A stretch of DNA of 64,000 nt from Capillimicrobium parvum. GTDB taxonomy: Bacteria; Actinomycetota; Thermoleophilia; Solirubrobacterales; Solirubrobacteraceae. The notes below the pieces were generated by a model. It saw nothing but the letters and a program-made list of their open reading frames with translations. It ran no database searches and was not told the DNA's origin. The translations under genes were made by a program, and so were the position numbers. The stretch covers positions 2,356,001-2,420,000 of the forward strand of contig NZ_CP087164.1 of assembly GCF_021172045.1 (NCBI RefSeq), given 5' to 3'. Positions 11,430 through 30,300 of this stretch are shown here, one piece after another. Position 1 is the stretch's first letter; each line of letters opens with the position of its first letter.

Positions 11430-11673
11430 CGACAGCGTCATCCGCTCGCCCGTCCCCGGGGTCTTCTACCGCCGGCCCGACCCGGGCTCTCCGCCGTTCG
11501 TCGAGGAGGGCGACGAGGTCGAGCCCGGCACCGTCGTCGGGCTCGTGGAGGTCATGAAGCAGTTCCACGAGCTGCGCTCGGAGTCCAGCGGCCGCGTGCG
11601 CGGGTTCACCGTGGACAACGAGGACGTCGTCAACGCCGGCGACACCGTCGTCGAGCTCGACGGGGCTGGTTGA
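11422..11673 (+). CDS. Biotin carboxyl carrier protein
   Basis: 83 residues forming a single biotinyl domain. The attachment motif is EVMKQFHEL with the biotin-accepting Lys46, preceded by GTVVGL and followed by SSGRVRGF, the usual beta-hammerhead pattern. It lacks the long N-terminal arm of fatty-acid-synthesis AccB. The start is TTG 11422, chosen because AGGAG at 11410-11414 sits 7 nt upstream and because the next in-frame candidates would cut into the domain. It overlaps the end of pxpC1 and is followed after 16 bp by the biotin carboxylase gene. It should shuttle carboxyl groups from that enzyme to the PxpB/PxpC-like carboxyltransferase. Confidence 0.9.
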   Translation: MADDSVIRSPVPGVFYRRPDPGSPPFVEEGDEVEPGTVVGLVEVMKQFHELRSESSGRVRGFTVDNEDVVNAGDTVVELDGAG

Positions 11674-11689
11674 CGGTCCCGGCCGGACC

Positions 11690-13934: not shown

Positions 13935-14849
13935 TCATACGTCGCCGTAGTCGACCGGGGTCAGGTAGCGGGTGTCGGCGTGCGCCGCCCAGTAGCGCTC
14001 GCGCAGGTGCCGCGTCGTCGGACCGACGGCCCCGTCGCCGATCGGAGCACCATCGAGCGTCACGATCGGCATGACGCCACCGGCGGTGGACGTCGCGAAC
14101 ATCTCGACCGCATCGCGGAGGCGGTCCTCTCCGAAGGGCCCGACCGAGACGGGAATGCCGTCGGCTTCCGCCAGCTCCAGGACGGTCCTGCGGGTGATGC
14201 CTTCCAGCACGCCCGCCGCGGGCGTGAGCAGCGTCCCGTCGCTGACGGCGAAGACGTTGTAGCCCGGACCCTCGGTGACGTTGCCGTCCGCGTCGAGGAG
14301 GATCGGATGGGTCGCTCCGCGGTCATAGGCTTCGTACAGCCCGCGGGTGAGGTCGGCCCAGTGGAAGTTCTTCACCGTGGGGTCGACGGACGTGACGGGA
14401 ATCCGCTGGACGGTCCGGGCGATCACCGCATCCATCGTCCCGGTCGTGCTCGCGTCCGGGACGATCCACACGTAGGGGATGGCGTACGCGAAGAAGCTGT
14501 TCTCGAAGGTCCGGGGATCGCGGCTGCCGGGTGGCGGCACCCCGCGCGTGCAGATGGTCTCGACGTAGGCCGAGCGCAGCCGGCTCGACCGGACGAGCTG
14601 CACCAGGATGCGCGCGATCTCAGCCCGGTCGTACGGCGGGCTCAGCCGAAGGGTGCGGCAGCTGCGCTCGAACCGCTCCAGATGGTCCTCCAGGCGGAAG
14701 AACGCACCGTTCCAGACGGCCACGACGTCATAGGTGACGTCTGATCGGGAGAAGCCCGTGTCGAGGATCGAGATCCGCGCCTCGCCGACCGGGACGAAAG
14801 CTCCGTCGACGTACGCGGCGCCATCTCGGAACGCGTTCGCCGCATCCAT
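13935..14849 (-). CDS. Class IV PLP-dependent aminotransferase
   Basis: 304 residues of the branched-chain/D-amino-acid aminotransferase fold. Typical features are YVDGAFVPVGEARISILDTGF near the N-terminus with the conserved aspartate, the putative PLP lysine in TVKNFHWADL, and LLDADGNVTEGPGYNVFAV followed by GVLEGITRRTVLELA. Length is normal. It starts at ATG 14849, 14 bp after the hyuB2 stop, and 29 bp separate it from the exporter gene, so all four minus-strand genes form one operon. It may deaminate the amino acid released by HyuA2/HyuB2. Branched-chain amino acids, D-amino acids or omega-amino acids are all possible substrates. Confidence 0.85.
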   Translation of the reverse strand: MDAANAFRDGAAYVDGAFVPVGEARISILDTGFSRSDVTYDVVAVWNGAFFRLEDHLERFERSCRTLRLSPPYDRAEIARILVQLVRSSRLRSAYVETICTRGVPPPGSRDPRTFENSFFAYAIPYVWIVPDASTTGTMDAVIARTVQRIPVTSVDPTVKNFHWADLTRGLYEAYDRGATHPILLDADGNVTEGPGYNVFAVSDGTLLTPAAGVLEGITRRTVLELAEADGIPVSVGPFGEDRLRDAVEMFATSTAGGVMPIVTLDGAPIGDGAVGPTTRHLRERYWAAHADTRYLTPVDYGDV

Positions 14850-14863
14850 CGCGGGCTCCCCGG

Positions 14864-16636
14864 CTAACCGGTGCGCAGCTCGGCGCGGCGGGCGCGCGTC
14901 GCTTCGAGGTCGACCTCGAGGCTCGACGACAGAGCCTCTTCGACGAACGCCACGCCATAGACGTCCCGGGCGCGCCCGAACGACACGAACCCGGCGAGGA
15001 CGTCGTCGCGGACGCGTTCGGGCTCGCGTTCGAGCGGATCGCCGTAGCCGCCGCCGCCGGTGCTGTGCTGTCCGATGGCCTCGCCCGGCGCGATCACCAC
15101 GGAGTCCAGCGGTGCGATCTCGGTCTCGTCGCCGTCCGCCGAGGCGCGGAACGGGATGTTCCGCGCCGCGGGTCCGCCGCCCTGCGTCCCGCGCGGCGGG
15201 TAGGTGACGCAGTCGGTCACGTACGCCGCGCCCATGGGGTCCCAGCGCGGGCCGTAGCGGACGGTGGTGCCGGGCGCGCCGCGGCGGCGACCGGCGCCCT
15301 CCGAGTCCATGCGGATGCGCAGCTCGCCGACGCGAATGGGGTACTTCTGCTCGGAGACCTCCACGCTGTCGCGGAACATCAGCCCGCTCGCCACGGCCAA
15401 TCCGTACGTCACCCAGCCGTCGGTGTCCACGTTGGCCGGCCCGCCCTGTGTGCCGAGGAAGTACTGGTTGACGTACGGCTCACCGCGCCTGCGCATGTCA
15501 GTGCCGGAGACCACCGCGAACCCGGGGCCGAGGCCGGTCGCCCCCTCCGCGACGCCGAAGCCGGGCCACGCGTCCGCGATCGCCTTCTGGGTCGTCACCA
15601 CGAGCCGGTCGCCGATGTTCGTCGTGGCCACGGAGGTGGAGTGCGGGAACTGCGGCCGCCCGACGATGCAGTTGTCGCGCAGCAGCAGCCTGATGCGGCG
15701 AAACGCGCCGGAGTTCGCCGGGATACCCGGCTCGATCGAGTTGAAGATGCCGGTCATGACGTTCGACACGGTGCACGCCTCGGACTGATTGAGCCCGGCC
15801 GGGATGCAGTCGATGTTGTCGCGCAGATCCAGCTCGACCGTGGCCTCCTCAGGATCGACGGTGATCGTGACGTTGATCGGGATGCCGTCGGGCAGCTGAT
15901 CGTCGATCGGGTCGTGCATGCCGTGGCCGGTGATCCGGCCCGCCGGCATCTGGGCGATGGCGTGGGCCATCTTCGCCTCGGAGTAGTCGAACCACTCGGC
16001 GATGAACTCCCGGACGAGCTCGTTGCCGTAGCGCGCGCACACCTCCTTCAGGCCGGCCTCGCCGATGCGCGCGGCGCCGACCATCGCGAGGTAGTCGCCG
16101 TACCACTGGTCGGGCACGCGGATGCGGCGCTGACCGACGCGGATCACATCGTCGATGTCGCGGCGATCGCGCTGTACGCGGACGCAGGGGAAGATCACGC
16201 CGCCCTCGTTGTAGATGTCGCGGGCGAACGGCATGTAGGTCGTGGGCTCGGCGTTGCCGGTGTCGGCCTGGTGCGCCTTGGCCACGGTGGTGAACATGTG
16301 CACGCCCTCGTGGAAGACCGGGACGAGGATCACATGGTCGGCAGGGTGTGAGTTGCCCAGGTAGGGGTCGTTGTGCAGGAACGCGTCGCCTTCGGCGAGG
16401 TCGTCGTGCAGGTCGGTCATCGCCGCCCCGAGGAGCTGAGCGCCGAAGATGTGCACCGGAAGCCCCTCGGCGGAGGCGAGCAGGTCGTTGTCCGCCGTGA
16501 CGATCGCGCAGGAGAAGTCGCGCGCCATGTTCAGCACGCCGCTGCGCCCCGTGCGCAGCAGGGTGTTCTCCATCTCGCGGACCACGCTGTCCAGGCGGTT
16601 GGCGATGACCGCGAGCAGGATCGGGTCGACGCTCAC
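14864..16636 (-). CDS. hyuB: Hydantoinase/oxoprolinase family, subunit B, second set
   Basis: 590 residues. It begins VSVDPILLAVIANRLDSVVR and contains DAFLHNDPYLGNSHPADHVI, the metal/amide-site cluster of HyuB proteins, and the C-terminal STGGGGYGDPLEREPERV. It is shorter than HyuB1 by about 65 residues and clearly diverged, closer in style to caprolactamase and acetone/acetophenone-carboxylase subunits. The start is GTG 16636, in a GTGA overlap with hyuA2; a much longer reading of the same frame runs into hyuA2 and is not real. With HyuA2 it should form an ATP-dependent cyclic-amide hydrolase, a lactam being the likely substrate given the aminotransferases nearby. Confidence 0.9.
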   Translation of the reverse strand: MSVDPILLAVIANRLDSVVREMENTLLRTGRSGVLNMARDFSCAIVTADNDLLASAEGLPVHIFGAQLLGAAMTDLHDDLAEGDAFLHNDPYLGNSHPADHVILVPVFHEGVHMFTTVAKAHQADTGNAEPTTYMPFARDIYNEGGVIFPCVRVQRDRRDIDDVIRVGQRRIRVPDQWYGDYLAMVGAARIGEAGLKEVCARYGNELVREFIAEWFDYSEAKMAHAIAQMPAGRITGHGMHDPIDDQLPDGIPINVTITVDPEEATVELDLRDNIDCIPAGLNQSEACTVSNVMTGIFNSIEPGIPANSGAFRRIRLLLRDNCIVGRPQFPHSTSVATTNIGDRLVVTTQKAIADAWPGFGVAEGATGLGPGFAVVSGTDMRRRGEPYVNQYFLGTQGGPANVDTDGWVTYGLAVASGLMFRDSVEVSEQKYPIRVGELRIRMDSEGAGRRRGAPGTTVRYGPRWDPMGAAYVTDCVTYPPRGTQGGGPAARNIPFRASADGDETEIAPLDSVVIAPGEAIGQHSTGGGGYGDPLEREPERVRDDVLAGFVSFGRARDVYGVAFVEEALSSSLEVDLEATRARRAELRTG

Positions 16637-18753
16637 GCCCGCTGCACCGCCGCCTCGATCGGCTGCGGCGTGGCCTCCCCGGGGCCCGCGTCGATGATGT
16701 AGGTCCCGTGCTCCGAGACCCGGACGACGGCGCCGGGATCGATCACCAGGGTCGTCGTCGGCTCCAGAACCACCGCCGGCCCGGCGATCTGGGTGTCCAC
16801 GGGCAGGAGCTCGCCGGCGTAGACGGGCGTGTCCTCGGCGCCGTGGCGCGCGAAGATGACGTTGCGGTGGCGCAGCGGCTGCGCGTCGCCCTCCGCGGAC
16901 GCCAGCGGCACGATGCGCGGCTTGTCGAGCTCGGCGGTCGCCCGCACCCTCCAGATCAGGCACTCGACGTACTGGCCGGGCTCCTTGACCGCGAAGACGC
17001 GTTCGTGGATGTCGTGAAAGCTCGCGACGAGCGCGCGGACGTCGTCGTCGTCGCGCAACCGCGTCGCCGGCAGCGGGGTCTCGAGCTCCCAGACCTGCCC
17101 GGGGTAGCGCGCGTCGACGCTCGCCTCCAGCCGCACATCGCGCGGAGCGAGCGCCTGGAGGCTCTCGACGAAACCGTCGGCGCGGTCCTTCGCGCTCGCC
17201 AGCGCGGCGTTGACCGCGTCCCGGTCGAGCGCGCGCGTCTCGGCGAACCGGCTGACCGAGAACTCCGAGATGAGATCGGCCTGCAGCGCGCCCGAGGCCG
17301 ACAGCGCTCCCGCGGTACGCGGCAGCAGGACCTGGCGGCAGCCCAGTTCGCGCGCCATCTGCACGACGTTGAGCCCGCTGGCGCCGCCGCCGGCGACGAT
17401 CGCCAACTCGCGCGGATCGATCCCCTGTGCGATCGTGATCTCGCGGATCGCCGAGACGACGTTCTGCGTCGCGATCACCATCGCGCCCTGGGCCGCCTCC
17501 TCGACCGTCTTCCCGAGGCGCGCCGCAACACCCTCGAACGCGCGGCGCGCGGCGGCGACGTCGAGGTGCAGGCGCCCGCCGAGGAAGCCGTCCGGATCCA
17601 GGTAGCCGAGCAGCACGGCGGCGTCGGTGATCGTGGGGTCCGCCCCGCCCATGCCGTAGCACGCGGGACCCGGCTCCGCGCCCGCGCTGTCCGGTCCCAC
17701 GTGCATCAGCCCGCCGGAGTCGACCGACACGATCGAGCCGCCGCCCGCGCCGATGCTCCGGACGTCCACCGCCTTGGTGCCCGTGATGTGACCGGTCCAG
17801 CGCTCGCCCAGCCACGTGTCGGCGGTGTAGTGGATCTGGCCCGAGCTGATCAGGCCCACGTCGAACGTCGTGCCGCCCGTGTCGCACACCAGCAGGTCGG
17901 GCGTGTCCGTGGGCAGCTCCGCGCGCCCGCACTCGAGGCCGGCGACCGGCGCCATCGACGGGCCCGAGCCGACGCTGTAGATCGGTCGATCGATCATCTC
18001 GGCGGTCGGCCAGGAACCGCCGAAGCTCGTCGAGACCAGGAGGTTGCCGGCGAAGCCGGCGGCACGCAGATCGTCGTCGAGATCGCCCAGGAAGCGCTGC
18101 ATGAGCGGCTTGAGGGACGCGTCGATGACCGTGGACGACGCCCGCCGGTACTCGCGGATGACGGGGTTGAGCAGGTGCGACAGCGTGACCGAGACGTCCA
18201 GGTGCTCGTCGAGCAGCTCGCCGACCCGGATCTCGTGAGCCGGGTTGACCGTCGACCAGAGCAGGCAGACGCCGACCGCCTCGACACCGTGGGACCGGCA
18301 CCCGTCGATGGCTTCCACGATGCTCGCCTCGTCCAGCGGCAGGAAGATCTCGCCGTCGCTGTCGACGCGCTCGGTGATCTCGAAGGTCAGATAGCGCGGG
18401 ACGTACGGCGGCGGGAACGGCTGGTGGCGGAAGGGGCCGAGCTTGCCGCCCTCGCGCATCAGCAGGATGTCGGGGAAGCCGCGCGTGGTGAAGAACGCGG
18501 TCCTCGCCGTCTTGCCCTCAACGATCGCGTTCGTCGCGCGCGTCGTGCCGTAGGCGAACTGCGAGGCCTGCGCGAGCAGCTGCGCGACCGTCAGGCCGAT
18601 GTCCGGCGCGATCTGCTCGAGCGCCTCGCGGATCGCGTCGAACGCGCGGCCCGCCGTGGTCAGCGCCTTGCCGATGTGCATCTCCCCGTGGGCGTCGACC
18701 ACGACCACGTCGGTGAAGGTCCCGCCGGTGTCTACGGAGATCCGGAAGTCCAC
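16633..18753 (-). CDS. hyuA: Hydantoinase/oxoprolinase family, subunit A, second set
   Basis: 706 residues. It starts MDFRISVDTGGTFTDVVVVD, the family's phosphate-binding motif, followed by YGTTRATNAIVEG, LVCDTGGTTFDVGLI and SIGAGGGSIVSVDSGG, then ELAIVAGGGASGLNVV. These mark the actin-like ATP-binding subunit that activates a ring amide before hydrolysis by HyuB2. It is the first gene of a four-gene minus-strand operon and is divergent from pxpA with 92 bp between them. Sequence motifs differ noticeably from HyuA1, so this is not a recent duplicate. Acetone-carboxylase-type activity is a less likely alternative. Confidence 0.9.
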   Translation of the reverse strand: MDFRISVDTGGTFTDVVVVDAHGEMHIGKALTTAGRAFDAIREALEQIAPDIGLTVAQLLAQASQFAYGTTRATNAIVEGKTARTAFFTTRGFPDILLMREGGKLGPFRHQPFPPPYVPRYLTFEITERVDSDGEIFLPLDEASIVEAIDGCRSHGVEAVGVCLLWSTVNPAHEIRVGELLDEHLDVSVTLSHLLNPVIREYRRASSTVIDASLKPLMQRFLGDLDDDLRAAGFAGNLLVSTSFGGSWPTAEMIDRPIYSVGSGPSMAPVAGLECGRAELPTDTPDLLVCDTGGTTFDVGLISSGQIHYTADTWLGERWTGHITGTKAVDVRSIGAGGGSIVSVDSGGLMHVGPDSAGAEPGPACYGMGGADPTITDAAVLLGYLDPDGFLGGRLHLDVAAARRAFEGVAARLGKTVEEAAQGAMVIATQNVVSAIREITIAQGIDPRELAIVAGGGASGLNVVQMARELGCRQVLLPRTAGALSASGALQADLISEFSVSRFAETRALDRDAVNAALASAKDRADGFVESLQALAPRDVRLEASVDARYPGQVWELETPLPATRLRDDDDVRALVASFHDIHERVFAVKEPGQYVECLIWRVRATAELDKPRIVPLASAEGDAQPLRHRNVIFARHGAEDTPVYAGELLPVDTQIAGPAVVLEPTTTLVIDPGAVVRVSEHGTYIIDAGPGEATPQPIEAAVQRA

Positions 18754-18845: not shown

Positions 18846-19625
18846 GTGCGGACCGTCGACATCAACTCCGATCTTGGCGAGAGCTTCGGCAACTGGCGGA
18901 TGGGCAACGACGAGGCGCTCATCCCCGAGATCACCACGGCGAACGTCGCCTGCGGCTTCCATGCGAGCGATCCGGTGACCATGGTCCAGACGGTCGAGCG
19001 CTGCAAGCAGCACGGCGTGGCGGTCGGCGCCCACCCGGGGCTGCCCGACCTGCTGGGCTTCGGCCGCCGGCCGATGGCGATCTCGCCCGACGACGCCTAC
19101 GCCTACGTTCTCTACCAGGCGGGCGCGCTGCAGGGCGTGCTGCGCAGCGTCGGCCTGACGCTGCACCACATCAAGCCGCACGGCGCCATGTACTCGATCC
19201 TGCGCGACGACCAGGAGTTGGCGCCCGCCGCCGCCGAGGCCATCGCGCAGGCGATGGACGAGCCGGTGGTCTACTGGCCCGCTCCCACGGACGCGGCGCT
19301 GCCGAACGAATGTCGCCGGCGCGGGATCCGCGTCGTGGGCGAGATCTACCCGGACCTGGAGTACGCGCCGGACGGCCGTCTGATCCTGCAGCGAGCCAAG
19401 CACCACACCGATGTCGCCGAGGCGACCGCACAGGTCCGGCGGTGGCTCGACACGGGTCGCGTCGCGACGCCGGACGGGACGCCGGTCGAGATCGATGCGG
19501 AGTCGATCTGCCTGCACGGCGACGGCCCGAACGCCGTCGAGGTGACCCAGGCGGTGAAACGGACGGTCGAAGAGGCCGGCTTCCGCGTGGGCCCGCTCGA
19601 CGCGACGACGGAGGTGACGGCATGA
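18846..19625 (+). CDS. pxpA: 5-oxoprolinase subunit A (LamB/YcsF family)
   Basis: 259 residues, the standard length. The family is unmistakable: TVDINSDLGESFGNW at the start, ANVACGFHASDP, GAHPGLPDLLGFGRR, HHIKPHGAMYSIL and ICLHGDGPNAVE. PxpA is the third subunit of ATP-dependent 5-oxoprolinase; LamB homologues are linked to lactam utilisation. Start GTG 18846. It is the only pxpA in the window, although pxpB and pxpC are each present twice; the partners in its own operon are the copies at 23450 and 24361. Its stop overlaps the next start (ATGA). Confidence 0.92.
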   Translation: MRTVDINSDLGESFGNWRMGNDEALIPEITTANVACGFHASDPVTMVQTVERCKQHGVAVGAHPGLPDLLGFGRRPMAISPDDAYAYVLYQAGALQGVLRSVGLTLHHIKPHGAMYSILRDDQELAPAAAEAIAQAMDEPVVYWPAPTDAALPNECRRRGIRVVGEIYPDLEYAPDGRLILQRAKHHTDVAEATAQVRRWLDTGRVATPDGTPVEIDAESICLHGDGPNAVEVTQAVKRTVEEAGFRVGPLDATTEVTA

Positions 19626-20653
19626 AGTTCGGCCTGATGTTCTCCCAGCAGGTGCCGCCGGAGAGCGGCATCACATGGCAGCAGCCGTACGAGGACATGC
19701 TGCGCTGTCTGCCCCGGGCCGAGGAGCTCGGCTACACCTCCGTCTTCAACGTCTCGCATCACGTGCAGCTCGACGGCCTCTGCCCGTCGCCGCTGATCGC
19801 GCTCGCCGGAGCGGCCGCGGTGACCGAGCAGATGAGGATCGGTCCCGGCGTCCTGCTCGTCCCGCTCTACGCGCCGCTGAAGCTCGCCGAGGACGTTGCG
19901 GTGCTCGACTGCCTCTCGAACGGCCGGCTCATCTTCGGCGTCGCCCCGGGCTACGTCTCCGAGGAGTTCGCCGCGCACGGCGTGCCGCGCGAGGAGCGCT
20001 TCGGCCGCTTCTGGGAGGCGCTCGAGCTCATGGACCGCGCCTGGACCGAGGAGCGGTTCTCGTTCGAGGGCAAGTACTTCCAGGTGCCCGAGACCCAGGT
20101 GAACCCGAAGCCGGTGCAGCAGCCGGTCCCGATCTGGTGGGGCCTGTCCGGGCCGAAGTCGCTCGCGCGCGCCGCGCGCCGAGGCGGGACGCTGTTCCCG
20201 TCGCCGCGGCACGGGATCGCGGAGATCCAGGAGCACCTCGACGTCTGGCGCGGCGCCGGCGGCGAGGTCGACGAGCTGCCGGTCATCCGGGAGGTCTTCG
20301 TCGCTGAGACGAGGGAGAAGGCGGAGGAGCTGGCGGCTCCGGCGGTGACGTACCTCTTCCGCGAGCTGTACGGCAAGAAGTCCGCGCAGGGCGAGCGCGA
20401 GCTGCGCGACGACGCGGGCAAGACCGTGCGGGCGGAGGATCAGGTGGACTTCGAGCACTTCAAGGGGCGCTACGTCATCGGCGATCCGGAGTTCGCCTAT
20501 CAGGAGCTCGTCAAGTACCAGCGCGAGCTCGGGGCGACGGAGATCATCTGCTGGATGCACCTGCCCGGACTGCGGGGGGATGTGGCCATGCGGTCGGTGG
20601 AGCTCTTCGCGAAGGAGGTCATGCCGGCGTTCCGTGAGCCGGCGAGCGTCTAA
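19622..20653 (+). CDS. LLM-class (luciferase-like) flavin-dependent oxidoreductase
   Basis: 343 residues of a TIM-barrel flavin enzyme: GLMFSQQVPPESGITWQQPY at the N-terminus, RIGPGVLLVPLYAPLKLAED, GRLIFGVAPGYVSEEF and the C-terminal SVELFAKEVMPAF. Such enzymes use reduced FMN/F420 to oxygenate or reduce a substrate. ATG 19622 overlaps the pxpA stop, so an earlier in-frame reading is discarded. Its place between pxpA and aldehyde dehydrogenase suggests it prepares a cyclic substrate (ring oxidation or N-dealkylation) before or during ring opening. The reaction is unknown. A related gene at 46100 belongs to the other locus. Confidence 0.85.
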   Translation: MKFGLMFSQQVPPESGITWQQPYEDMLRCLPRAEELGYTSVFNVSHHVQLDGLCPSPLIALAGAAAVTEQMRIGPGVLLVPLYAPLKLAEDVAVLDCLSNGRLIFGVAPGYVSEEFAAHGVPREERFGRFWEALELMDRAWTEERFSFEGKYFQVPETQVNPKPVQQPVPIWWGLSGPKSLARAARRGGTLFPSPRHGIAEIQEHLDVWRGAGGEVDELPVIREVFVAETREKAEELAAPAVTYLFRELYGKKSAQGERELRDDAGKTVRAEDQVDFEHFKGRYVIGDPEFAYQELVKYQRELGATEIICWMHLPGLRGDVAMRSVELFAKEVMPAFREPASV

Positions 20654-20665
20654 GGAGGCGACCCG

Positions 20666-22171
20666 ATGGCAGCGACGACCGAGAGCGCGGTGCAGCGCTA
20701 CAGGCTCTACATCGACGGCGAGGAGGTCGACGCGAGCGGCGGAGCCGTCTTCCCTTCGACGAACCCCGCGACCGGGGAGCCGTGGGCGGAGGTCGCCGAC
20801 GCGACGGCCGAGGACGTCGATCGCGCCGTGCGCGCCGCCGCGCGCGCGTTCGCGCACGACAGCCCGTGGCGGACGCTCTCGGCGACGAAGCGCGGCCGGC
20901 TGCTGATGCGCCTCGCCGACGCGATCACCGCGCATGCCGACGAGATCGCGCGGATCGAGGTGCGCGAGAACGGCAAGCTGCTCAAGGAGATGGCCGCGCA
21001 GCTGCGCGTCGTGCCCGAGTGGCTCTACTACTTCGGCGGGCTCGCCGACAAGATCGAGGGCAAGACCATCCCGCTGGACCGCACGTCGGTCCTGAACTAC
21101 ACGACGCGCGAGCCGCTCGGCGTCGTCGGCGTCATCACGCCGTGGAACTCGCCGTCGCTGCTGACCTTCATGACCCTCGCGCCGGCGCTCGCCGCCGGCA
21201 ACACCATCGTCGTCAAGCCGTCGGAGGTGACGTCGGCGTCGCTGCTCGAGATCGCGCGCCTCCTGCCGGAGGCGGGGTTCCCACCCGGCGTGATCAACGT
21301 CGTCACGGGGGCTCGCGTCGCCGGGCAGGCGCTCGCGGCGCACCCGGGCGTCGCGAAGATCGCCTTCACCGGCGGCTCCGACGCCGGGCGCTCGATCGCG
21401 GCCACGGTCGGCGGCCGCCTCGGGCGGGTGACGCTGGAGCTCGGCGGCAAGAGCCCGAACATCGTCTTCGAGGATGCGGACCTCGACGCCGCCGAGGCGG
21501 GTGTGCTCGCCGGGATCTACGGCGCCGGCGGCCAGACCTGCATCGCCGGGTCGCGGGCGTTCGTCCACGAGTCGATCTACGACGAGCTCCTCGACCGGCT
21601 GCGCCGGCGCGCCGAGGGGATCGTCCTCGGCAACCCGCTCGAGCCCGAGACGCAGATGGGCCCGGCCGCGACCGAGGCCCAGCTGCAGAAGATCGCGCAG
21701 TTCGTCGACGACGCGCGTGGGGAGGGCGCGCGAGTGGTCGCCGGTGGGCAGCGCGGCAGCGTCGAGGCTCTGCCGAACGGGTTCTTCTACGAGCCCACGA
21801 TCCTCGCCCAGATCACGAACGAGAGCCGGGTCGCGCAGGAGGAGGTCTTCGGGCCGGTCCTCGCGGCGATGCCGTTCCGCGACGACGAGGAGGCGATCCA
21901 GCTCGCGAACGCCACGCGGTACGGGCTCGCCGCCGGCATCTGGACCCAGAACGTGAAGCGGGCGCACCGGGTCGCGCGGCGCCTCGACGCGGGCACGATC
22001 TGGATCAACCTCTACCGCGCGATCACCTACAACTCGCCGTTCGGCGGGTTCAAGGAGAGCGGCATCGGACGACTGAACGGCGTGGACGCGGTCGACGAGT
22101 TCCTGCAGACCAAGAGCGTCTGGGTCGAGCTCTCCGACGACGTCCAGGACCCCTTCGTCCTGAAGGTCTAG
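20666..22171 (+). CDS. NAD(P)-dependent aldehyde dehydrogenase
   Basis: 501 residues, normal ALDH length. Motifs in order: GVVGVITPWNSPSLL (cofactor and oxyanion Asn), VVKPSEVTSAS, FTGGSDAGRSI, the general-base glutamate in LELGGKSPN and the nucleophile cysteine in GGQTCIAGSR; NYL-type C-terminal NSPFGGFKESGIGRLNG. It starts at ATG 20666 after AAGGAGG. Between an LLM oxidoreductase and a class III aminotransferase, it most likely oxidises the semialdehyde formed by that transaminase (succinate semialdehyde or a longer homologue) to a dicarboxylic acid. Betaine-aldehyde-type activity cannot be excluded. Confidence 0.9.
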   Translation: MAATTESAVQRYRLYIDGEEVDASGGAVFPSTNPATGEPWAEVADATAEDVDRAVRAAARAFAHDSPWRTLSATKRGRLLMRLADAITAHADEIARIEVRENGKLLKEMAAQLRVVPEWLYYFGGLADKIEGKTIPLDRTSVLNYTTREPLGVVGVITPWNSPSLLTFMTLAPALAAGNTIVVKPSEVTSASLLEIARLLPEAGFPPGVINVVTGARVAGQALAAHPGVAKIAFTGGSDAGRSIAATVGGRLGRVTLELGGKSPNIVFEDADLDAAEAGVLAGIYGAGGQTCIAGSRAFVHESIYDELLDRLRRRAEGIVLGNPLEPETQMGPAATEAQLQKIAQFVDDARGEGARVVAGGQRGSVEALPNGFFYEPTILAQITNESRVAQEEVFGPVLAAMPFRDDEEAIQLANATRYGLAAGIWTQNVKRAHRVARRLDAGTIWINLYRAITYNSPFGGFKESGIGRLNGVDAVDEFLQTKSVWVELSDDVQDPFVLKV

Positions 22172-22190
22172 CGAACGAAAGGACGGCAGC

Positions 22191-23438
22191 ATGAGCACGC
22201 AGGCCCCGTCGCGCTCCTTCGTCTCATGGCGCGCCGCCGACATCGACGGAGACCACGCCAGCGGCTGCGTGATCACGACTGCCGACGGCACGGAGCTCCT
22301 CGACTTCACGGCCGGGATCGGCGTGGTCTCCACCGGCCACTGCCACCCGCGCGTCGTCGCGGCGATCCAGGAGCAGGCCGCGCGGTTCATCCACGCCCAG
22401 GCGAACCTGGTCCGCCATGCGATGCTCGAGCCGCTCGGTGAGGCGCTCGCCGAGATCGCGCCCCCCGGGATCGATCACTTCTTCTACGCGAACTCCGGCG
22501 CGGAGGCGATCGAGAGCTTCGTGAAGTTCGCGCGCCAGGCGACGCGGCGCAGCAACGTGATCGTGTTCGAGGGCTCGTTCCACGGCCGCACGCTGATGGC
22601 CGCGGCGCTGACGATGTCGAACGTCGTCTACCGCGCCGGCTTCGGCCCCCTGCCCGAGGGCGTGTACGTCGCGCCCTACCCGTACGCGTACGCGATGGGC
22701 GAGGACCCGGAGACCGCGTCCGAGCTGGCCCTCGAGGCCGTGCGCAAGCTGTTCAAGACGCAGACGGCGCCCGAGGACACCGCAGGCATCCTCGTCGAGC
22801 CGGTCCTGGGGGAGGGCGGGTACGTCGTGCCGCCGCCGTCGTTCCTGGTGGGACTGCGCGAGATCTGCGACGAGCACGGGATGGCGCTCGGGGTCGACGA
22901 GGTGCAGTGCGGGGTCGGGCGCACCGGGCGCTGGTGGGCCTGCGAGCACTCCGGCGTGTCCCCGGACATCCTCTGCTTCGCGAAGGGCATCGCGTCCGGC
23001 TTCCCGATCTCGGGCGTCGGGCTGCGCCCCTGGCTGCTGCGCAACGCGACTCCGGGCTCGCACGGCGGCACCTATGGCGGCAACGCGATCGGGTGCGCGG
23101 CCGCACTCGCGACGCTCGAGGTCATCCGCGACGAACGGCTCGTGGAGAACGCCGCCGAGCGGGGGCGGCAGCTGCTCGCGGCGTGCGAGCGCCTGCAGGA
23201 GCGCCATGCCGTCATCGGCGACGTGCGCGGTCTCGGCCTGATGGTCGGGCTCGAGCTCACGGACCCGGCGCGTGTCCGGCCGGTCCTGACGCACATGCTC
23301 GAGAGCGGCAAGGTCCTTGCGCTCTCGTGCGGGCCGGGCGGCGCGGTGATCCGGTTCGTGCCGCCGCTCATCGTCCGGGAGGCCGAGGTCGAGCGCGCCG
23401 TGGCCGCACTTGACACGGCGCTTGCCGAGACGGCTTAG
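22191..23438 (+). CDS. Class III (omega-amino acid) aminotransferase
   Basis: 415 residues in the ornithine/4-aminobutyrate aminotransferase family. It shows FFYANSGAEAIESFVKFARQ, FEGSFHGRTLMAAALTMS, the PLP aspartate in LGVDEVQCGVGRTG and the Schiff-base lysine in CFAKGIASGFPISG. It follows the aldehyde dehydrogenase by 19 bp with an AAAGGA site. The pairing aminotransferase plus semialdehyde dehydrogenase is the standard outlet for omega-amino acids such as 4-aminobutyrate, 5-aminovalerate or 6-aminohexanoate. These are the products of opening 2-pyrrolidinone, valerolactam and caprolactam. The chain length preferred here is not visible from sequence. Confidence 0.9.
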   Translation: MSTQAPSRSFVSWRAADIDGDHASGCVITTADGTELLDFTAGIGVVSTGHCHPRVVAAIQEQAARFIHAQANLVRHAMLEPLGEALAEIAPPGIDHFFYANSGAEAIESFVKFARQATRRSNVIVFEGSFHGRTLMAAALTMSNVVYRAGFGPLPEGVYVAPYPYAYAMGEDPETASELALEAVRKLFKTQTAPEDTAGILVEPVLGEGGYVVPPPSFLVGLREICDEHGMALGVDEVQCGVGRTGRWWACEHSGVSPDILCFAKGIASGFPISGVGLRPWLLRNATPGSHGGTYGGNAIGCAAALATLEVIRDERLVENAAERGRQLLAACERLQERHAVIGDVRGLGLMVGLELTDPARVRPVLTHMLESGKVLALSCGPGGAVIRFVPPLIVREAEVERAVAALDTALAETA

Positions 23439-23449
23439 GATCGCGCGAC

Positions 23450-24364
23450 ATGGTGAAGAGCGACAGGCAGCCCATCGCCGAACCGGAGCTGCCGGAGCCC
23501 CGCTACACGTTCGGCGGCGACGATCACGTCTTCGTGGACCTCGACCAGGCCATGAGCTTCCGCGTCAACTTCCGGCTGCGGGCGCTGACGCACGAGCTCG
23601 GCGCCCGGCAGATTCCCGGCGTGTTGGAGATCGCGCCCGCCAACTCGTCCTACCTCGTCCGCGTCGACCCCGACCGGCTCGACCCTCGCGACCTCGTGCG
23701 CGAGCTGCGCCGGCTCGACGAGGAGCTCGGGCACGGGGCGCCGCCGGCGTTCCGGACGCGGATCATCGACATGCCGACGTACTACAACGATCCCTGGTCG
23801 CGCGAGTGCCTGATGCAGTTCCGCGACCGCCACCAGAACCCGACGGGGACGGATATCGAGTACGTCGCGCGCGTGAACGACATGAGCGAGGACGAGTTCA
23901 TCGCGACACATCATGGGGCGCCGTACCTCATCACGATGGTGGGGTTCGTCCCCGGCACGGCGTGGCACTTCCAGATGGTGCCGCCCGAACGCCAGCTGCA
24001 GGTCCCCAAGTACATCCGGCCCCGCACGGACACGCCGGAACGCACGCTCTCGCACGGCGGCGCGTTCGCCGCGATCTACCCGGTGCGCGGGCCCGGCGGC
24101 TACCAGCTGTTCGCCCGGGTCGCGCCGCCGGTGTTCGACGCGGCGCAGCGGCTGCCGGACTTCGAGGAGTCGCCGGTGCTGATGCAGCAGGGCGACATCG
24201 TCAAGTTCCGGCCGATCGAACGCGACGAGTACGACGCGATCCGCGCCGAGTGCGAGGCGGGGACCTACCGGTACCGCATCCGCGAGACCGAGTTCGACCC
24301 CCAGGCCTTCTTCGCGGACCCCTACGCGTACGACGACCGCCTCGTCAAGGAGCTCTCCTCGTGA
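23450..24364 (+). CDS. pxpB: 5-oxoprolinase subunit B / KipI-like, copy 2
   Basis: 304 residues, colinear with the copy at 9548 and sharing the core PKYIRPRTDTPERTLSHGG, the GFVPGTAWHFQM region and YPVRGPGGYQLFA. Outside these motifs the two copies are well diverged, so the duplication is old. It starts 11 bp after the aminotransferase and overlaps pxpC2 (GTGA), and is in the same operon as pxpA, unlike copy 1. This set (pxpA, pxpB2, pxpC2) could by itself be a complete PxpABC-type ATP-dependent 5-oxoprolinase or lactamase. Confidence 0.9.
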   Translation: MVKSDRQPIAEPELPEPRYTFGGDDHVFVDLDQAMSFRVNFRLRALTHELGARQIPGVLEIAPANSSYLVRVDPDRLDPRDLVRELRRLDEELGHGAPPAFRTRIIDMPTYYNDPWSRECLMQFRDRHQNPTGTDIEYVARVNDMSEDEFIATHHGAPYLITMVGFVPGTAWHFQMVPPERQLQVPKYIRPRTDTPERTLSHGGAFAAIYPVRGPGGYQLFARVAPPVFDAAQRLPDFEESPVLMQQGDIVKFRPIERDEYDAIRAECEAGTYRYRIRETEFDPQAFFADPYAYDDRLVKELSS

Positions 24365-25326
24365 TCTCGGTCCTCGACGGCGGCGTCTCGACGACGGTGC
24401 AGGACGCCGGCCGCTTCGGCCTTTACCACATCGGCATGCCGCCGTCCGGCGCGCTCGACGACTTCTCGTTCCGCGCCGCGAACCTCCTCGTCGGCAACGA
24501 CGAGACCGCGCCGGTGCTCGAGGCGACCTACAACGGCCCGCGCCTCGCGTTCGAGCAGGACACGCTGGTCGCGGTCACCGGCGCGGATCTGCCGGCGAAG
24601 GTCGACGGCGAGGAGCGTCCGGCGTGGGAGGCGTTCACGGTCCGCGCCGGGCAGGAGCTGACGTTCGACTACCTGCGCGCGGGTGCTCGGCCCTACATCG
24701 CTGTCGCCGGCGGCTTCAAGGTGCCCGAGGTCATGGGTTCGAGCTCGACGTACACGCTGGTCGCCCTGGGCGGCTGCGAAGGCCGCGCGCTGCGGGCCGG
24801 GGACTCGCTTCGCACGGGTGAGCCGCGCGGCGGTCGCGAGGGTGCTCGAGTGGCGGAGCGCCTGCGCCCGCAGCTCATGTCGGACTGGGAGATCCGTGTC
24901 GTGACCGGTCTGTGCGACTACCGGCTGAGCGAGGCCGGCCATCGCACGTTCCTCGAGACGGAGTGGACCGTGACGCCCGCGGCGGACCGGATCGGCTACC
25001 GCTATCAGGGTGCCGAGCTGGAGTTCGTCGAGCGGGAGCCGCCGTTCGGCGCCGGCAGCGACCCGTCCAACGTCGTCGACGTCGGCTACCCGATCGGTTC
25101 GATCCAGGTTCCCGGTGGCGTCGAGCCGATCGCGCTGCTCAACGATGCGGTCACGGGCGGCGGCTACGCCACGATCGCCACCATCATCAGCGCCGACCGC
25201 GATGCGGTCGCGCAGTCCAAGACGCACGACCGGACACGGTTCGTGGCCGTCCCGATCGAGGACGCGCTGGCGGCGCGAGCGGAGCGCCGGCGCCGCCTCG
25301 ACGAGGTCAGGGACTCTCTGACGTGA
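24361..25326 (+). CDS. pxpC: 5-oxoprolinase subunit C / KipA-like, copy 2
   Basis: 321 residues. It opens ISVLDGGVSTTVQDAGRFG and has GMPPSGALDDFSFRAANLLV, VAVTGADLPAKVDGEE, VAGGFKVPEVMGSSSTY and, near the end, VGYPIGSIQVPGGVEPIAL and GGGYATIATIISADRDAVAQ. Starts at GTG 24361 within the pxpB2 stop; a longer reading of the frame crosses pxpB2 and is not real. Last gene of the plus-strand pxpA operon. No biotin genes adjoin this copy, in contrast to pxpC1. Its last 20 bases overlap the convergent enolase-superfamily gene. Confidence 0.9.
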   Translation: MISVLDGGVSTTVQDAGRFGLYHIGMPPSGALDDFSFRAANLLVGNDETAPVLEATYNGPRLAFEQDTLVAVTGADLPAKVDGEERPAWEAFTVRAGQELTFDYLRAGARPYIAVAGGFKVPEVMGSSSTYTLVALGGCEGRALRAGDSLRTGEPRGGREGARVAERLRPQLMSDWEIRVVTGLCDYRLSEAGHRTFLETEWTVTPAADRIGYRYQGAELEFVEREPPFGAGSDPSNVVDVGYPIGSIQVPGGVEPIALLNDAVTGGGYATIATIISADRDAVAQSKTHDRTRFVAVPIEDALAARAERRRRLDEVRDSLT

Positions 25327-26440
25327 CGCGGTGGCGGTCGATGTAGTCCTCGTCGAGCTCCCAACCCAGGCCCGGGGCGTCGCTCAACTCGATGCAGCCC
25401 GCTGAGAGCGGCGGCCGGTTGGCGATCAGGTTCCACCAGATCGGGTCGCGGTCGGGCTCGAAGCACTCGACGTACCTCCCGTGGGGGATCGACGCGAGCA
25501 GATGCGCCGCGACCTGCGGCTCCTCGTGATGGCCCATGTCGACGTCGAAGCCCGCGGCCATGGCGGCAACCCGCCGCCACTCCGTCGGACCGCCGGACCA
25601 TGACGCGTCGAAGTTGCAGATGTCGATGGCGCCCTCGACCATGAGGTCGCGGCAGCCGGCGGCCGAGAACTCGCTCTGTCCCGCGCAGACGCGCAGCGGG
25701 GAGCGGTAGCGGACATCGCGCATCGCCCGCCGGTCGTTGTGCCAGCGGCACGGCTCCTCGAACCACGCGACGTCCTCTCCCTCGACGAGGCGCGCGAACT
25801 CGATCGCCTCGCGCGGCGACCACGCCTGGTTCGCGTCGACCGCAAGCACGAAGTCCTGGCCTGCGGCGCGGCGCGCCGTCCGGACGCGCTCGGCGTCCTC
25901 GGCGGGCGTCAGCCCTCCGACCTTGAACTTGATGCCCGCCAGACCACGTTCGCGCAGGTCCGCGATCTCCTGCTCGATGGAGACGGGCGATCCGTAGTAG
26001 CCGCCGATGGAGATCATCGGCAGGCTGCGGCGATAGCCGCCCCACAGCCGCCACAGCGGCTCGCCGAGCGCCTTGCCGATCGCGTCCCAGATCGCCGTGT
26101 CCACGCACGCCGACGCCACCAGGCCGAGCCGCCGGTCGCGGAGGATGTCGAAGGTCACCGGTCGCGCGATCTCCCAGCAGCGCTCGACCCTCGCGGCGTC
26201 CTCGCCGAGCAGGCGCGGGGCGATCTCGCGGTCGATGATCTGCTGGATCGCCTGCAGCGCCGCGTCCTCGTCGCCCGCGTACGCCTCGCCGACGATCCCC
26301 GAGCCGGTCACGACGCGAGTGATCACCGTCGAGCGATGGGTCATCTCGTAGTAGCTGCCGCGGTACACGCGTCCCAGCGGCACGCGGATCGGCACCGTCT
26401 CGATCGCGGCGATGGTCAGGTCGCGCGCCGGGCCCGTCAT
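25307..26440 (-). CDS. Mandelate racemase / muconate lactonizing enzyme family (enolase superfamily)
   Basis: 377 residues from ATG 26440. Catalytic features of the mandelate racemase subgroup are present: the KxK motif in AGIKFKVGG, metal ligands in LAVDANQAW, WFEEPCRWH and CAGQSEFS, and a C-terminal base region MGHHEEPQ. These enzymes abstract the proton alpha to a carboxylate, giving racemisation, cycloisomerisation or sugar-acid dehydration; which one is not clear. A GTG at 26474-26476 would add 12 residues but has no ribosome-binding site. ATG 26440 lies in an ATGA overlap with a 20-codon leader reading frame that does. Convergent with pxpC2. Confidence 0.88.
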   Translation of the reverse strand: MTGPARDLTIAAIETVPIRVPLGRVYRGSYYEMTHRSTVITRVVTGSGIVGEAYAGDEDAALQAIQQIIDREIAPRLLGEDAARVERCWEIARPVTFDILRDRRLGLVASACVDTAIWDAIGKALGEPLWRLWGGYRRSLPMISIGGYYGSPVSIEQEIADLRERGLAGIKFKVGGLTPAEDAERVRTARRAAGQDFVLAVDANQAWSPREAIEFARLVEGEDVAWFEEPCRWHNDRRAMRDVRYRSPLRVCAGQSEFSAAGCRDLMVEGAIDICNFDASWSGGPTEWRRVAAMAAGFDVDMGHHEEPQVAAHLLASIPHGRYVECFEPDRDPIWWNLIANRPPLSAGCIELSDAPGLGWELDEDYIDRHRVTSESP

Positions 26441-26499
26441 GACGTCACGCCCGTCGACCGCCGGCCCCGGATCCACGTGAACGTCATACCGGCCTGCAT
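26437..26499 (-). CDS. Possible 20-codon leader peptide coupled to the enolase-superfamily gene
   Basis: On the minus strand a strong GGGAGG is followed by ATG (26499) and an uninterrupted frame MQAGMTFTWIRGRRSTGVTS, whose TGA overlaps the ATG of the next gene (ATGA). The downstream gene has no good ribosome-binding site of its own, so it may be translated by re-initiation after this leader. No family is recognised and there are no obvious regulatory codon runs. It might instead be the remains of a different true N-terminus separated by a frameshift. Confidence 0.4.
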   Translation of the reverse strand: MQAGMTFTWIRGRRSTGVTS

Positions 26500-27318: not shown

Positions 27319-30300
27319 TCACATGTTGCGCCGGTACTCGCCGCCGACGTCGTAGAGGGCGCCGGAGATCTGGCCGAGCGAGGCGCTCTTGACCGTCTCC
27401 AGCAGGGCCTCGAAGACGTTGCCGCGCGCCAGCGCGACCTCCTGCAGGCGCGCGAGCGCCGGCTCGGTCTCGCCGGCGTGGTTGCGCTGGAAGGCGCGCA
27501 GGTTGGCGATCTGCTCGCGCTTCTCCTGCTCGGTGGAGCGCGCGAGCTCGATCTCGGCGCCGGCGTGCTCGGCCTGCTCGCGCGGGAGGAAGGTGTTGAC
27601 GCCGATGAGCGGGAGCGTGCCGTCGTGCTTGAGTTGCTCGTAGAGCAGGCTCTCCTCCTGGATCTTGCCGCGCTGGTACATGGTGTCCATGGCGCCGAGC
27701 ACGCCGCCGCGCTCGGAGATGCGGTCGAACTCCTCGTAGACGGCGGCTTCGACGAGGTCGGTGAGCTCGTTGATGATGAACGAGCCCTGCAGGGGGTTCT
27801 CGCAGAAGTTCAGGCCGAGCTCGCGGTTGATGATGAGCTGGATCGCGACCGCGCGGCGCACGGACTCCTCGGTCGGCGTGGTGATCGCCTCGTCGTAGGC
27901 GTTGGTGTGCAGGCTGTTGGTGTTGTCGAAGATGGCGTAGAGCGCCTGCAGCGTGGTGCGGATGTCGTTGAACTGCATCTCCTGGGCGTGGAGGCTGCGG
28001 CCGGACGTCTGGATGTGGTACTTGAGCATCTGGCTGCGCGGGGCGGCGCCGTAGCGCTCGCGCATCGCGCGCGCCCAGATCCGGCGTGCGACGCGGCCGA
28101 TGACCGCGTACTCGGGGTCCATGCCGTTGGAGAAGAAGAACGACAGGTTCGGCGCGAACGCGTCGACGTCCATGCCGCGGGCGAGGTAGTACTCGACGAT
28201 CGTGAAGCCGTTGGCCAGCGTGAACGCCAGCTGGGAGATCGGGTTCGCGCCGGCCTCGGCGATGTGGTAGCCGCTGATCGAGACCGAGTAGAAGTTGCGC
28301 ACGCCGCAGTCGACGAACGACTGCTGGACGTCGCCCATCATCTTCATCGCGAACTCGGTGGAGAAGATGCAGGTGTTCTGGGCCTGGTCCTCCTTGAGGA
28401 TGTCGGCCTGCACGGTGCCGCGGACCTTCGTCAGCGTGTCGGCCTTGATGCGCTCGTACACGTCGCGGTCGACGACCTGGTCGCCGGAGACGCCGAGCAG
28501 CCCGAGGCCGAGACCGTCGTTGCCGGGCGGTAGCTCGCCGCCGTAGCGGGGGCGCTCGCGGCCCTCGAACAGCGCGTCGAGCCGGCGCTCGCTCTCCGCC
28601 CACGCCCCCGTCTCGCGCAGGTGCTTCTCGACCTGCTGATCGATCGCGGCGTTCATGAAGAAGGCGAGGATGATCGGCGCCGGGCCGTTGATCGTCATCG
28701 ACACCGACGTGGTCGGGTCGCAGAGGTCGAAGCCCGAATACAGCTTCTTGGCGTCGTCGACCGTGGCGATCGAGACGCCGGAGTTGCCGACCTTGCCGTA
28801 GATGTCCGGGCGCTCATGGGGGTCCTCGCCGTAGAGCGTCACGGAGTCGAACGCCGTCGACAGCCGCGCGGCGCCCTGGCCCTCGGAGAGGAGGTGGAAG
28901 CGCCGGTTCGTGCGCTCCGGGGTGCCCTCGCCGGCGAACATGCGCGTCGGGTCCTCGCCCTCGCGCCGGTAGGGGAACACGCCGCCGGTGTAGGGGTAGG
29001 CGCCGGGCAGGTTCTCCTTCATCAGAAAGCGCAGCCGGTCGGCCCACCCGTCCAGGCGCGGCGGCGCGATCTTCGGGATCTGCCGGCCGCTGAGCGAGGT
29101 GCGGTAGTTGTCGCCCGTGATCTCGCGGCCGCGGATCGTGTAGCGGTACTGGTCGGCGGTGATCGACGCGACCCGCTCGTCCCAGCCGCGCAGCAACTCG
29201 ATCGCCTCGGCACCGAGGCCGGTCAGCGCCTTGTTGTACTGCGCACGCAGCGGTGCGTGGACGTCGCCGGCGGTCAGGGCCGCGCTGTGAAACGGCTCGA
29301 GCGGCTCGGGGAGCAGCGGGTCGCCCCACGCGCGCAGCGCCTCGTAGCAGTGGTGCGCCTGGCTCGCGAGCTGCGCGAGGCGCTCCACGTCTTCGTTGAT
29401 CGATCGTCCCTGCTGGGCGATCTCGGCCAGATACCGCCCCCGCGACCCCGGGATCAGCGTGTTGCCCCGGGGCTCGTGCGTCTCGAGATCGAGGCCGGGC
29501 GCCCAGCGGCCGGGCTCGACGCCCGCGACCTCCGCGAGCCGCCGGCAGAGGTTGACGAACATCCAGCTCAGCCCGGGGTCGTTGAACTGGCTGGCGATCG
29601 TCGGGTACACCGGCAGCTCCTCGTCGGGGCCGCCGAAGGCGACGTGGTTGCGCCGCCACTGCTTGCGCACGTCGCGCAGCGCGTCCTGGGCGCCGCGCTT
29701 GTCGAACTTGTTGATGACGACGAGGTCGGCGAGATCGAGCATGTCGATCTTCTCGAGCTGGCTGGCCGCCCCGAACTCGCTCGTCATCACGTAGACCGAG
29801 CAATCGACCAGGTCGACGATCTCGGAGTCGCTCTGGCCGATGCCGGCGGTCTCGACGATCACCAGGTCGAACCCGGAGGCGCGCAGGAACGCGACCGCGT
29901 CCTCGAGCATCGCGCTCGTCGCCCGGTGCCGGCGCCGGGTCGCCATCGACCGCATGTAGATGCGCTCGTGGCGCAGGCTGTTCATCCGGATCCGGTCGCC
30001 GAGCAGCGCCCCGCCGGTCCGCCGCCGCGTCGGGTCGACCGCGAGGACCGCCACCCGCAGGTCGGCGAAGCACTGCATGAACCGCGAGAGCAGCTCGTCG
30101 GTCACGGTGCTCTTGCCCGCGCCGCCGGTTCCGGTGATGCCGACGACCGGCACGCCGTGCCCGGCCGCGCTCCACGCCGCCCGCAGCGCCTCGAGCCGCT
30201 CGGCGTCCAGCGCGCCGTCCTCGAGCGCCGAGAGCATCCGCGCGATCGCCACGTCGTCGGTCGCGTGCGGATCCGCGGGGACCGCCGTGGCCACGCGCGC

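Follow-up and report, generated by a model that had tools for sequence, protein, structure and literature searches.

Why do homologues of the three 5-oxoprolinase proteins PxpA, PxpB and PxpC share one compact run of genes with an LLM-class oxidoreductase, an aldehyde dehydrogenase (ALDH) and a class III aminotransferase (AT) in Capillimicrobium parvum (Actinomycetota; Solirubrobacterales)? The run lies in a stretch of 64,000 nt (contig NZ_CP087164.1, positions 2,356,001 to 2,420,000), here called the window, which has a GC content of 69.5% and belongs to a genome of 5.95 Mb on one contig. A sequence-only reading had proposed that these genes convert a lactam via an omega-amino acid into a dicarboxylate, with the neighbouring HyuAB proteins as the lactamase by analogy to caprolactamase and with the LLM enzyme adding an oxidative step. 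Our analysis leaves the overall route plausible and points to a different way of opening the ring: because PxpB is of a urea-carboxylase-like kind and a biotin carboxylase and a biotin carboxyl carrier protein (BCCP) are encoded within the window, ring opening is probably biotin-dependent and not driven by HyuAB. We are evenly divided on whether the cluster degrades a cyclic amide (lactam), or a compound converted into one, when carboxylation, hydrolysis, transamination and aldehyde oxidation are taken jointly with an F420-linked LLM enzyme.

The six genes pxpA, LLM, ALDH, class III AT, pxpB2 and pxpC2 lie closely packed in a single plus-strand run, in the order and at the positions that had been read from the sequence, and the run does diverge from hyuA2-hyuB2, with HyuA2 lying 92 bp upstream of PxpA on the opposite strand. 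The successive intergenic spacings are -4, 12, 19, 11 and -4 bp, as in one operon. Five of the genes have frames that pass a coding filter based on GC content by codon position; that of PxpC2, judged over the longer mechanical open reading frame 23410-25326, fails it. The Pfam E-values for the six range from 1.2e-37 (PxpB2) to 9.1e-173 (ALDH), so chance matches are of no concern. The interval originally singled out omits two linked features, namely an enolase-superfamily gene on the minus strand that overlaps the 3' end of the operon and the BCCP and biotin carboxylase genes upstream (11422-13057).

The case for biotin rests in part on PxpB2, which scores 128.8 bits against the urea carboxylase model TIGR02712 and 77.2 bits against the PxpB model TIGR00370, both under cut-off, and which among solved proteins is closest to urea carboxylase and urea amidolyase. 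Its Lys187 aligns with Lys1605 of the urea amidolyase of K. lactis, described in the relevant portion of the source as the likely general base of carboxyl transfer (PMC5770610), and the second PxpB of the window, PxpB1, likewise carries the aligned lysine. In an alignment of 16 PxpB sequences the lysine is present in all 15 long chains, whereas E. coli PxpB has an arginine, which also occupies this position in the short PxpB-type chains 3mml and 9yx5; PxpB2 has 304 residues and E. coli PxpB 218. The cut-offs of the PxpB and PxpC equivalog models are missed (TIGR00370, 77.2 versus 145.55 bits; NF045499, 223.7 versus 500), though PxpC2 exceeds that of TIGR00724 (271.7 versus 230.2). Judged from such comparisons PxpB and PxpC look like a split urea carboxylase, PxpC2 less clearly so. 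Urea carboxylase proper is not what the window encodes, as the genes are separate and PxpB2 (128.8 bits) and PxpC2 (237.2 bits) fall far below the TIGR02712 cut-off of 1303.85. The cluster would thus share with urea carboxylase and urea amidolyase, as far as the portion cited describes them (PMC5770610), the carboxyltransferase subdomains, the aligned catalytic lysine, the biotin carboxylase and the BCCP, but it distributes them over separate genes, has PxpA in place of allophanate hydrolase, and presumably acts on a lactam.

PxpABC is the prokaryotic 5-oxoprolinase of E. coli, B. subtilis and C. glutamicum and is assumed to act by phosphorylation, according to the part of the source consulted for this point (PMC13274462). 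Our operon resembles that system in uniting PxpA, PxpB and PxpC homologues, and differs from it in a PxpB of about 300 residues with the urea-carboxylase-type lysine and in the biotin carboxylase and BCCP encoded nearby, by the adjoining unit rather than by the PxpB2 operon itself. PxpA exceeds the cut-offs of two subfamily models (NF003814, 285.6 versus 226; NF003816, 222.3 versus 213) and misses all three PxpA equivalog models in NCBIfam; it is 53-63% identical to the PxpA encoded near the LLM in genome G071, from another family of the same order, and in two Pseudomonadota metagenome-assembled genomes (MAGs), 41% to PxpA of Agrobacterium rubi and 33% to E. coli PxpA. By family search the genome holds two PF02682 matches and one PF03746 match, so a single PxpA may work with both PxpBC pairs.

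The same association is seen on plasmids. PxpB2 matches 89 plasmid records, of which 30 were listed; twelve of these were opened by hand choice, together with an A. rubi stretch chosen by its LLM gene, and the counts use the 12 of these 13 stretches that are annotated. Biotin carboxylase and PxpA are present in all 12, and a BCCP-like 'acetyl-CoA carboxylase' gene in 11. On a plasmid of Agrobacterium sp. T29 the order is PxpA, BCCP, biotin carboxylase, PxpB, PxpC, 4-aminobutyrate (GABA) transaminase and succinate-semialdehyde dehydrogenase (SSADH), an order most naturally read as a path from a lactam through GABA to succinate. In Diaphorobacter and Sulfitobacter the module is paired instead with a molybdenum enzyme of the xanthine dehydrogenase family. 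Two Pseudomonadota MAGs encode a fused biotin carboxylase-carboxyltransferase of about 1100 residues near pxpA-LLM (L033 3743-7078; L034 4955-8236, the latter by eye), and in two MAGs a Lys-type PxpB-PxpC pair lies away from pxpA-LLM, between glutamate-cysteine-ligase-like and TrpE-like genes recognized by eye (L074 9346-11211; L076 9524-11380).

We now turn to the LLM enzyme. Since the first 101 genomes all hold some LLM protein, counts of its subfamily are restricted to matches that reach 41% identity or fall inside strict profile limits (1e-60, 1e-70). Within the phylum the strict profile is found in 2 of 396 genomes, that of the window (G000) and G071, which makes the cluster a rare one with a patchy distribution. 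A pattern scan of genome contigs gave four LLM loci, and one candidate, L036, was dropped as lying outside the subfamily (34% identity over 133 residues). Nine of the 11 copies, across eight genomes or records, sit beside pxp genes. Specifically, PxpA is directly upstream of LLM in the window, L033, L034, L035, L086 and L087; in L038 it is PxpC that is directly upstream; in L075 a biotin carboxylase-PxpB-PxpC run diverges from LLM; and in L032 PxpA is about 1.7 kb away, across an ALDH gene. The PxpA genes of L035, L086 and L087, PxpC and biotin carboxylase of L032 and L075, and the Pseudomonadota neighbours were recognized by eye from translations and not by family search. An alcohol dehydrogenase gene resembling the NDMA type is also found near pxpA-LLM in L033 (11111-12193, under cut-off), L034 and L035 (the latter two by eye).

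To score the capacity for F420 we used CofH (TIGR03551) over its cut-off, which matched 3 of 14 control genomes; CofD (PF01933) was discarded as a marker, since it matches 10 of the 14, including E. coli. All eight genomes or records with the LLM subfamily carry CofH (6/6 in the first set, the others from a class sample). In that sample, 369 genomes from the class of G484, the LLM profile (E <= 1e-70) occurs in three genomes and CofH in 14, and all three are among the 14 (hypergeometric 4.4e-5; 1.2e-3 without the centre genome). The FbiC/CofGH-type matches over the CofH cut-off number two in each cluster genome (G000:C1:1361941 and 2999426; G071:C6:4903 and 25284), one of those in G071 ending about 1.7 kb from the cluster.

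The best plasmid relative of the LLM (41% identity) is encoded on A. rubi pW2_73_1 (L038), a plasmid typed as conjugative, where PxpB, PxpC, LLM, cofD, cofC, cofGH, gabT, cofE, npdG and another class III AT gene follow each other in one direction, and PxpA, BCCP and biotin carboxylase are divergent. The cofD gene comes 22 bp after LLM, and LLM lies inside the cof operon. Across L038 10105-24343, F420 biosynthesis genes and an NADPH-dependent F420 reductase adjoin a lactam-type catabolic module. A second LLM-class gene of our window (46100-47182; 35% identity to the operon LLM) lies after sugar-type ABC transporter genes and before a CaiB-type CoA-transferase.

From the observed genes and the way they are linked, from the signatures in their families and residues and from the F420 co-occurrence, we infer the substrate, every reaction and the order of steps as follows. 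The LLM enzyme would make an F420-dependent redox change on a nitrogen ring, next to the ring nitrogen. The favoured direction is oxidative, from a cyclic hemiaminal to the lactam, by analogy to F420-dependent glucose-6-phosphate dehydrogenase, which converts a hemiacetal into a lactone, and reduction of an unsaturated lactam is possible. Biotin carboxylase, with ATP and bicarbonate, would load CO2 onto BCCP, and PxpB/PxpC, with Lys187 as base, would transfer it to the lactam nitrogen, N-carboxylation activating the amide. This step is modelled on urea carboxylase, which likewise feeds a hydrolase. PxpA would then hydrolyse the ring, and the carbamate would shed CO2 to give an omega-amino acid, which the AT would turn into a semialdehyde and the ALDH into a dicarboxylate. 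The enolase-superfamily enzyme, lastly, would take a hydroxylated acid, which makes it probable that the substrate bears hydroxyl groups.

The AT has GABA aminotransferases as nearest solved relatives, with 292 bits versus about 215 for acetylornithine AT, which disfavours an ornithine or acetylornithine enzyme, the finding that would have spoken against the lactam route as first proposed. The AT nonetheless misses the GABA AT equivalog TIGR00700 (351.1 versus 506.65) and reaches no cut-off among the 25 listed of 69 NCBIfam models. The ALDH, with the motif GGQTC at 288, is closest to betaine-aldehyde and hydroxymuconic-semialdehyde-type enzymes, and reaches no cut-off among the 25 listed of 43 models. 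The gene order in Agrobacterium T29 and the presence of both enzymes in G071 also keep the conversion of a lactam via an omega-amino acid into a dicarboxylate plausible.

In G071, where the LLM is 59% identical to ours, ALDH, LLM, enolase and AT are co-directional and diverge from PxpA, PxpB, PxpC, BCCP and biotin carboxylase (the last three by eye). Its AT and ALDH are 26% and 32% identical to those of the window and so belong to other subfamilies, and that non-orthologous enzymes recur in the two clusters argues that the pathway needs both functions. Over 365 residues the enolase shares 77% identity with the LLM-adjacent gene of G071, so that the convergent enolase-superfamily gene probably belongs to the cluster. 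It has KFK at 183, VDANQ at 213, FEEP at 239 and GHHEEP at 315, which we take to be residues of the mandelate-racemase subgroup, and it scores 554 bits against the solved 3no1/4h83 (over 378 residues for 3no1). The records of 3no1, 4h83 and 3msy, to which it is close, name the superfamily alone, whereas the gene described here comes with a pathway context.

Several observations weigh against this interpretation as a whole. The best solved match of PxpC2 is YbgK/PxpC, of the 5-oxoprolinase type (174.9 bits), followed by urea carboxylase (143.7). No pxp gene was noticed in the 14-kb stretches around the LLM copies L088 and L089, and in G483 and G485 PxpBC is on other contigs than LLM. Neither AT nor ALDH was noticed by eye in the five Pseudomonadota pxpA-LLM stretches (L033-L035, L086 and L087); together with the separate PxpBC of G483 and G485, this suggests that the AT-ALDH part goes with clusters like those of the window, G071, A. 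rubi and T29 rather than with each copy of the LLM. Of the eight LLM genomes or records, only two were seen to have the enolase. The co-occurrence of LLM and CofH may partly reflect shared ancestry, which would inflate the numbers, and G000 and G071 may come from a lineage in which F420 is widespread, so that six of the eight cases carry weight; the A. rubi plasmid is independent of this concern. No biotin-associated Pxp module or biotin-dependent lactamase of the proposed type was found in the open-access literature, among the matches listed, and the same search gave no publication on the LLM subfamily of the cluster.

The remaining points against F420 concern the LLM protein itself, and they favour an alternative for this one enzyme. 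An AlphaFold2 model (mean pLDDT 82.7) gives Z scores of 34.6 for the flavin mononucleotide (FMN)-type RslO1 and 33.0 for luciferase, versus 29.5 for the F420-type Mer and 29.0 for FGD (F420 enzymes, 27-29.5); Foldseek and a family profile searched against solved chains also rank FMN-type enzymes nearest, and the best NCBIfam model, the F420 family TIGR03619, is missed by 6 bits (160.9 versus 166.9). Our LLM shares the general LLM fold with the F420-dependent enzymes FGD, Mer and Adf and has the company of F420 genes (8/8 genomes or records), but is nearer to FMN-type luciferases in sequence and fold. It could be a monooxygenase of the luciferase or RutA kind that depends on FMNH2 and hydroxylates the ring or cleaves it oxidatively, with the F420 genes serving other enzymes. 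RutA, which opens uracil, also matches the model (Z 26.2), and the histidine pair at 46-47, aligned with solved chains, is presumably of the luciferase kind. CofH in all eight genomes or records, the position of the A. rubi LLM within a cof operon, and the fact that none of the 26 annotated features of that stretch is named flavin reductase count against it, and we regard a flavin enzyme as somewhat unlikely. That the LLM uses F420 we consider likely, and no firmer, because of the fold and profile results and the TIGR03619 score. An added redox step is plausible, as first suggested, but its oxidative nature is unproven, and the context favours F420 over an O2-using flavin enzyme even though the fold is nearer that of FMN enzymes.

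The two other alternatives concern the ring opening. In a caprolactamase-type route HyuA2-HyuB2 would open the lactam and PxpABC would be an ordinary, unrelated 5-oxoprolinase for pyroglutamate. HyuAB2 do diverge from the operon, both the window and Methylobacterium have a Hyu pair near a Pxp module, the top-scoring NCBIfam models of HyuA2 and HyuB2 are CapA and CapB, and among solved chains PxpC2 matches YbgK/PxpC best. However, the cut-offs of the CapAB equivalogs NF050156/NF050157 (1000 each) are far from reached by HyuA2 (532.6) and HyuB2 (267.1), as they are by HyuA1 (519.5) and HyuB1 (334.9), and HyuAB was not seen in the 20-kb G071 stretch or the A. rubi stretch. HyuAB2 as the main lactamase, the part of the sequence-only reading drawn from caprolactamase, was set back on these grounds; the ordinary 5-oxoprolinase was set back on the type of PxpB2, a urea-carboxylase-like protein with lysine for arginine and 304 versus 218 residues, and on the missed PxpB and PxpC equivalog cut-offs. 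We find this route improbable, and slightly less so a reductive route of the pyrimidine or hydantoin kind, in which LLM with F420H2 would reduce a C=C bond, HyuAB and PxpABC would each open one ring bond, and AT and ALDH would follow. The upstream unit, with its NCS1-type permease (cytosine/uracil/allantoin class) and HyuAB1, fits that route, as does a plasmid of Haladaptatus pallidirubidus (L047 1-12202) that joins the Pxp-biotin module to an LLM, dihydropyrimidinase-like and carbamoylase-like enzymes, a class III AT, MMSDH and a cytosine permease. But the Haladaptatus LLM has just 26% identity over 266 residues and lies closest to Mer, no dihydropyrimidinase or ureidopropionase is among the window proteins given to family searches, and the module with GABA transaminase and SSADH in Agrobacterium T29 fits a simple lactam. 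The Haladaptatus stretch in its own right resembles a reductive route for pyrimidines that employs an F420 enzyme, a Mer-like LLM. The probabilities given for the biotin-dependent, F420-linked interpretation and for these alternatives overlap and do not sum to one.

Among known systems the closest in logic is the caprolactam pathway of Pseudomonas jessenii, which reportedly includes a class III AT and an ALDH. The parts of the literature consulted on its CapAB enzyme already describe the conversion of a lactam via an omega-amino acid to a diacid (PMC8453981, PMC6061476). Our cluster shares with it the sequence from lactam through omega-amino acid and semialdehyde to dicarboxylate, and HyuAB-type proteins next door, but the operon holds PxpABC-type genes and an LLM, biotin carboxylase and BCCP are nearby, and HyuAB2 miss the CapA and CapB cut-offs. 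If the biotin-dependent interpretation is true, a carboxylation-driven lactamase would join the phosphorylation-type enzymes as another, second means of opening stable lactams with ATP, which is relevant to nylon monomers and to N-heterocyclic pollutants, and the solved 3no1, 4h83 and 3msy would gain a pathway context. An F420-linked redox step in the cluster would also give one concrete reason for F420 in scattered bacteria; why Proteobacteria and Chloroflexi make F420 is listed as unanswered in the relevant section of a 2021 review (PMC8498797). A catabolic operon with cofactor genes beside the candidate user makes this question testable with few enzymes. A fuller version, which we advance only tentatively and think rather unlikely to hold as a whole, is a so far unrecognised and horizontally spread use of cyclic amines or lactams in which a luciferase-type LLM with F420 in place of FMN would oxidise a hemiaminal to the lactam, a split biotin-dependent carboxylase (biotin carboxylase, BCCP, PxpB and PxpC) and PxpA would open it via the N-carboxylactam, and the set would travel, on the conjugative-typed Agrobacterium plasmid, along with F420 biosynthesis genes and an F420 reductase of its own, thereby accounting for F420 production in some Pseudomonadota.

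Features of the proposed lactam cluster and its surroundings (window positions)
Feature	Positions	Strand	Basis
NCS1-type permease, possible substrate uptake	3807-5456	+	PF02133 4.9e-11
HyuA1	5542-7581	+	PF01968 6e-91
HyuB1	7578-9551	+	PF02538 2.1e-154
PxpB1, second urea-carboxylase-type subunit, Lys181, 299 aa	9548-10447	+	PF02682; reading frame
PxpC1	10437-11429	+	PF02626 2.7e-88
BCCP, predicted biotinylation at Lys46 in VEVMKQ	11422-11673	+	reading frame, motif and position alone; TTG start a guess
Biotin carboxylase	11690-13057	+	PF02786, PF00289, PF02785; NF006367 610.7, above cut-off 597
Class IV aminotransferase within HyuAB2 run	13935-14849	-	PF01063 1.4e-44
HyuB2, divergent neighbour, start approximate	14864-16681	-	PF02538 5.9e-122
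HyuA2, divergent neighbour	16633-18753	-	PF01968 4.7e-72
PxpA, LamB/YcsF family, proposed hydrolase of activated lactam	18846-19625	+	PF03746 8.3e-84; NF003814
LLM-class oxidoreductase, proposed F420-dependent ring redox step	19622-20653	+	PF00296 3.2e-57
ALDH, proposed conversion of semialdehyde to carboxylate	20666-22171	+	PF00171 9.1e-173
Class III AT, proposed omega-amino acid aminotransferase	22191-23438	+	PF00202 1.5e-119
PxpB2, urea-carboxylase-type carboxyltransferase subunit, predicted catalytic Lys187 (alignment)	23450-24364	+	PF02682 1.2e-37
PxpC2, carboxyltransferase subunit	24361-25326	+	PF02626 6.5e-88
Enolase-superfamily enzyme (MR_MLE), proposed late step on hydroxy acid	25307-26476	-	PF13378, PF02746; overlaps operon 3' end

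The second plus-strand unit upstream begins with a cupin-like gene that scores under the Pfam cut-off and continues with the NCS1-type permease, HyuA1, HyuB1, PxpB1, PxpC1, BCCP and biotin carboxylase. PxpB1 is 55% identical to PxpB of G071, and the BCCP counterpart in G071 carries IEIMKS. Upstream of this unit lies a gene resembling EutA or arylmalonate decarboxylase (952-1725), under both cut-offs. Downstream of the operon, at 27319-30759, the window encodes a fused isobutyryl-CoA mutase, IcmF (1665.4 bits versus a cut-off of 1500), beside a periplasmic-binding-protein gene and an acyl-CoA-dehydrogenase-like open reading frame, the latter recognized by eye.

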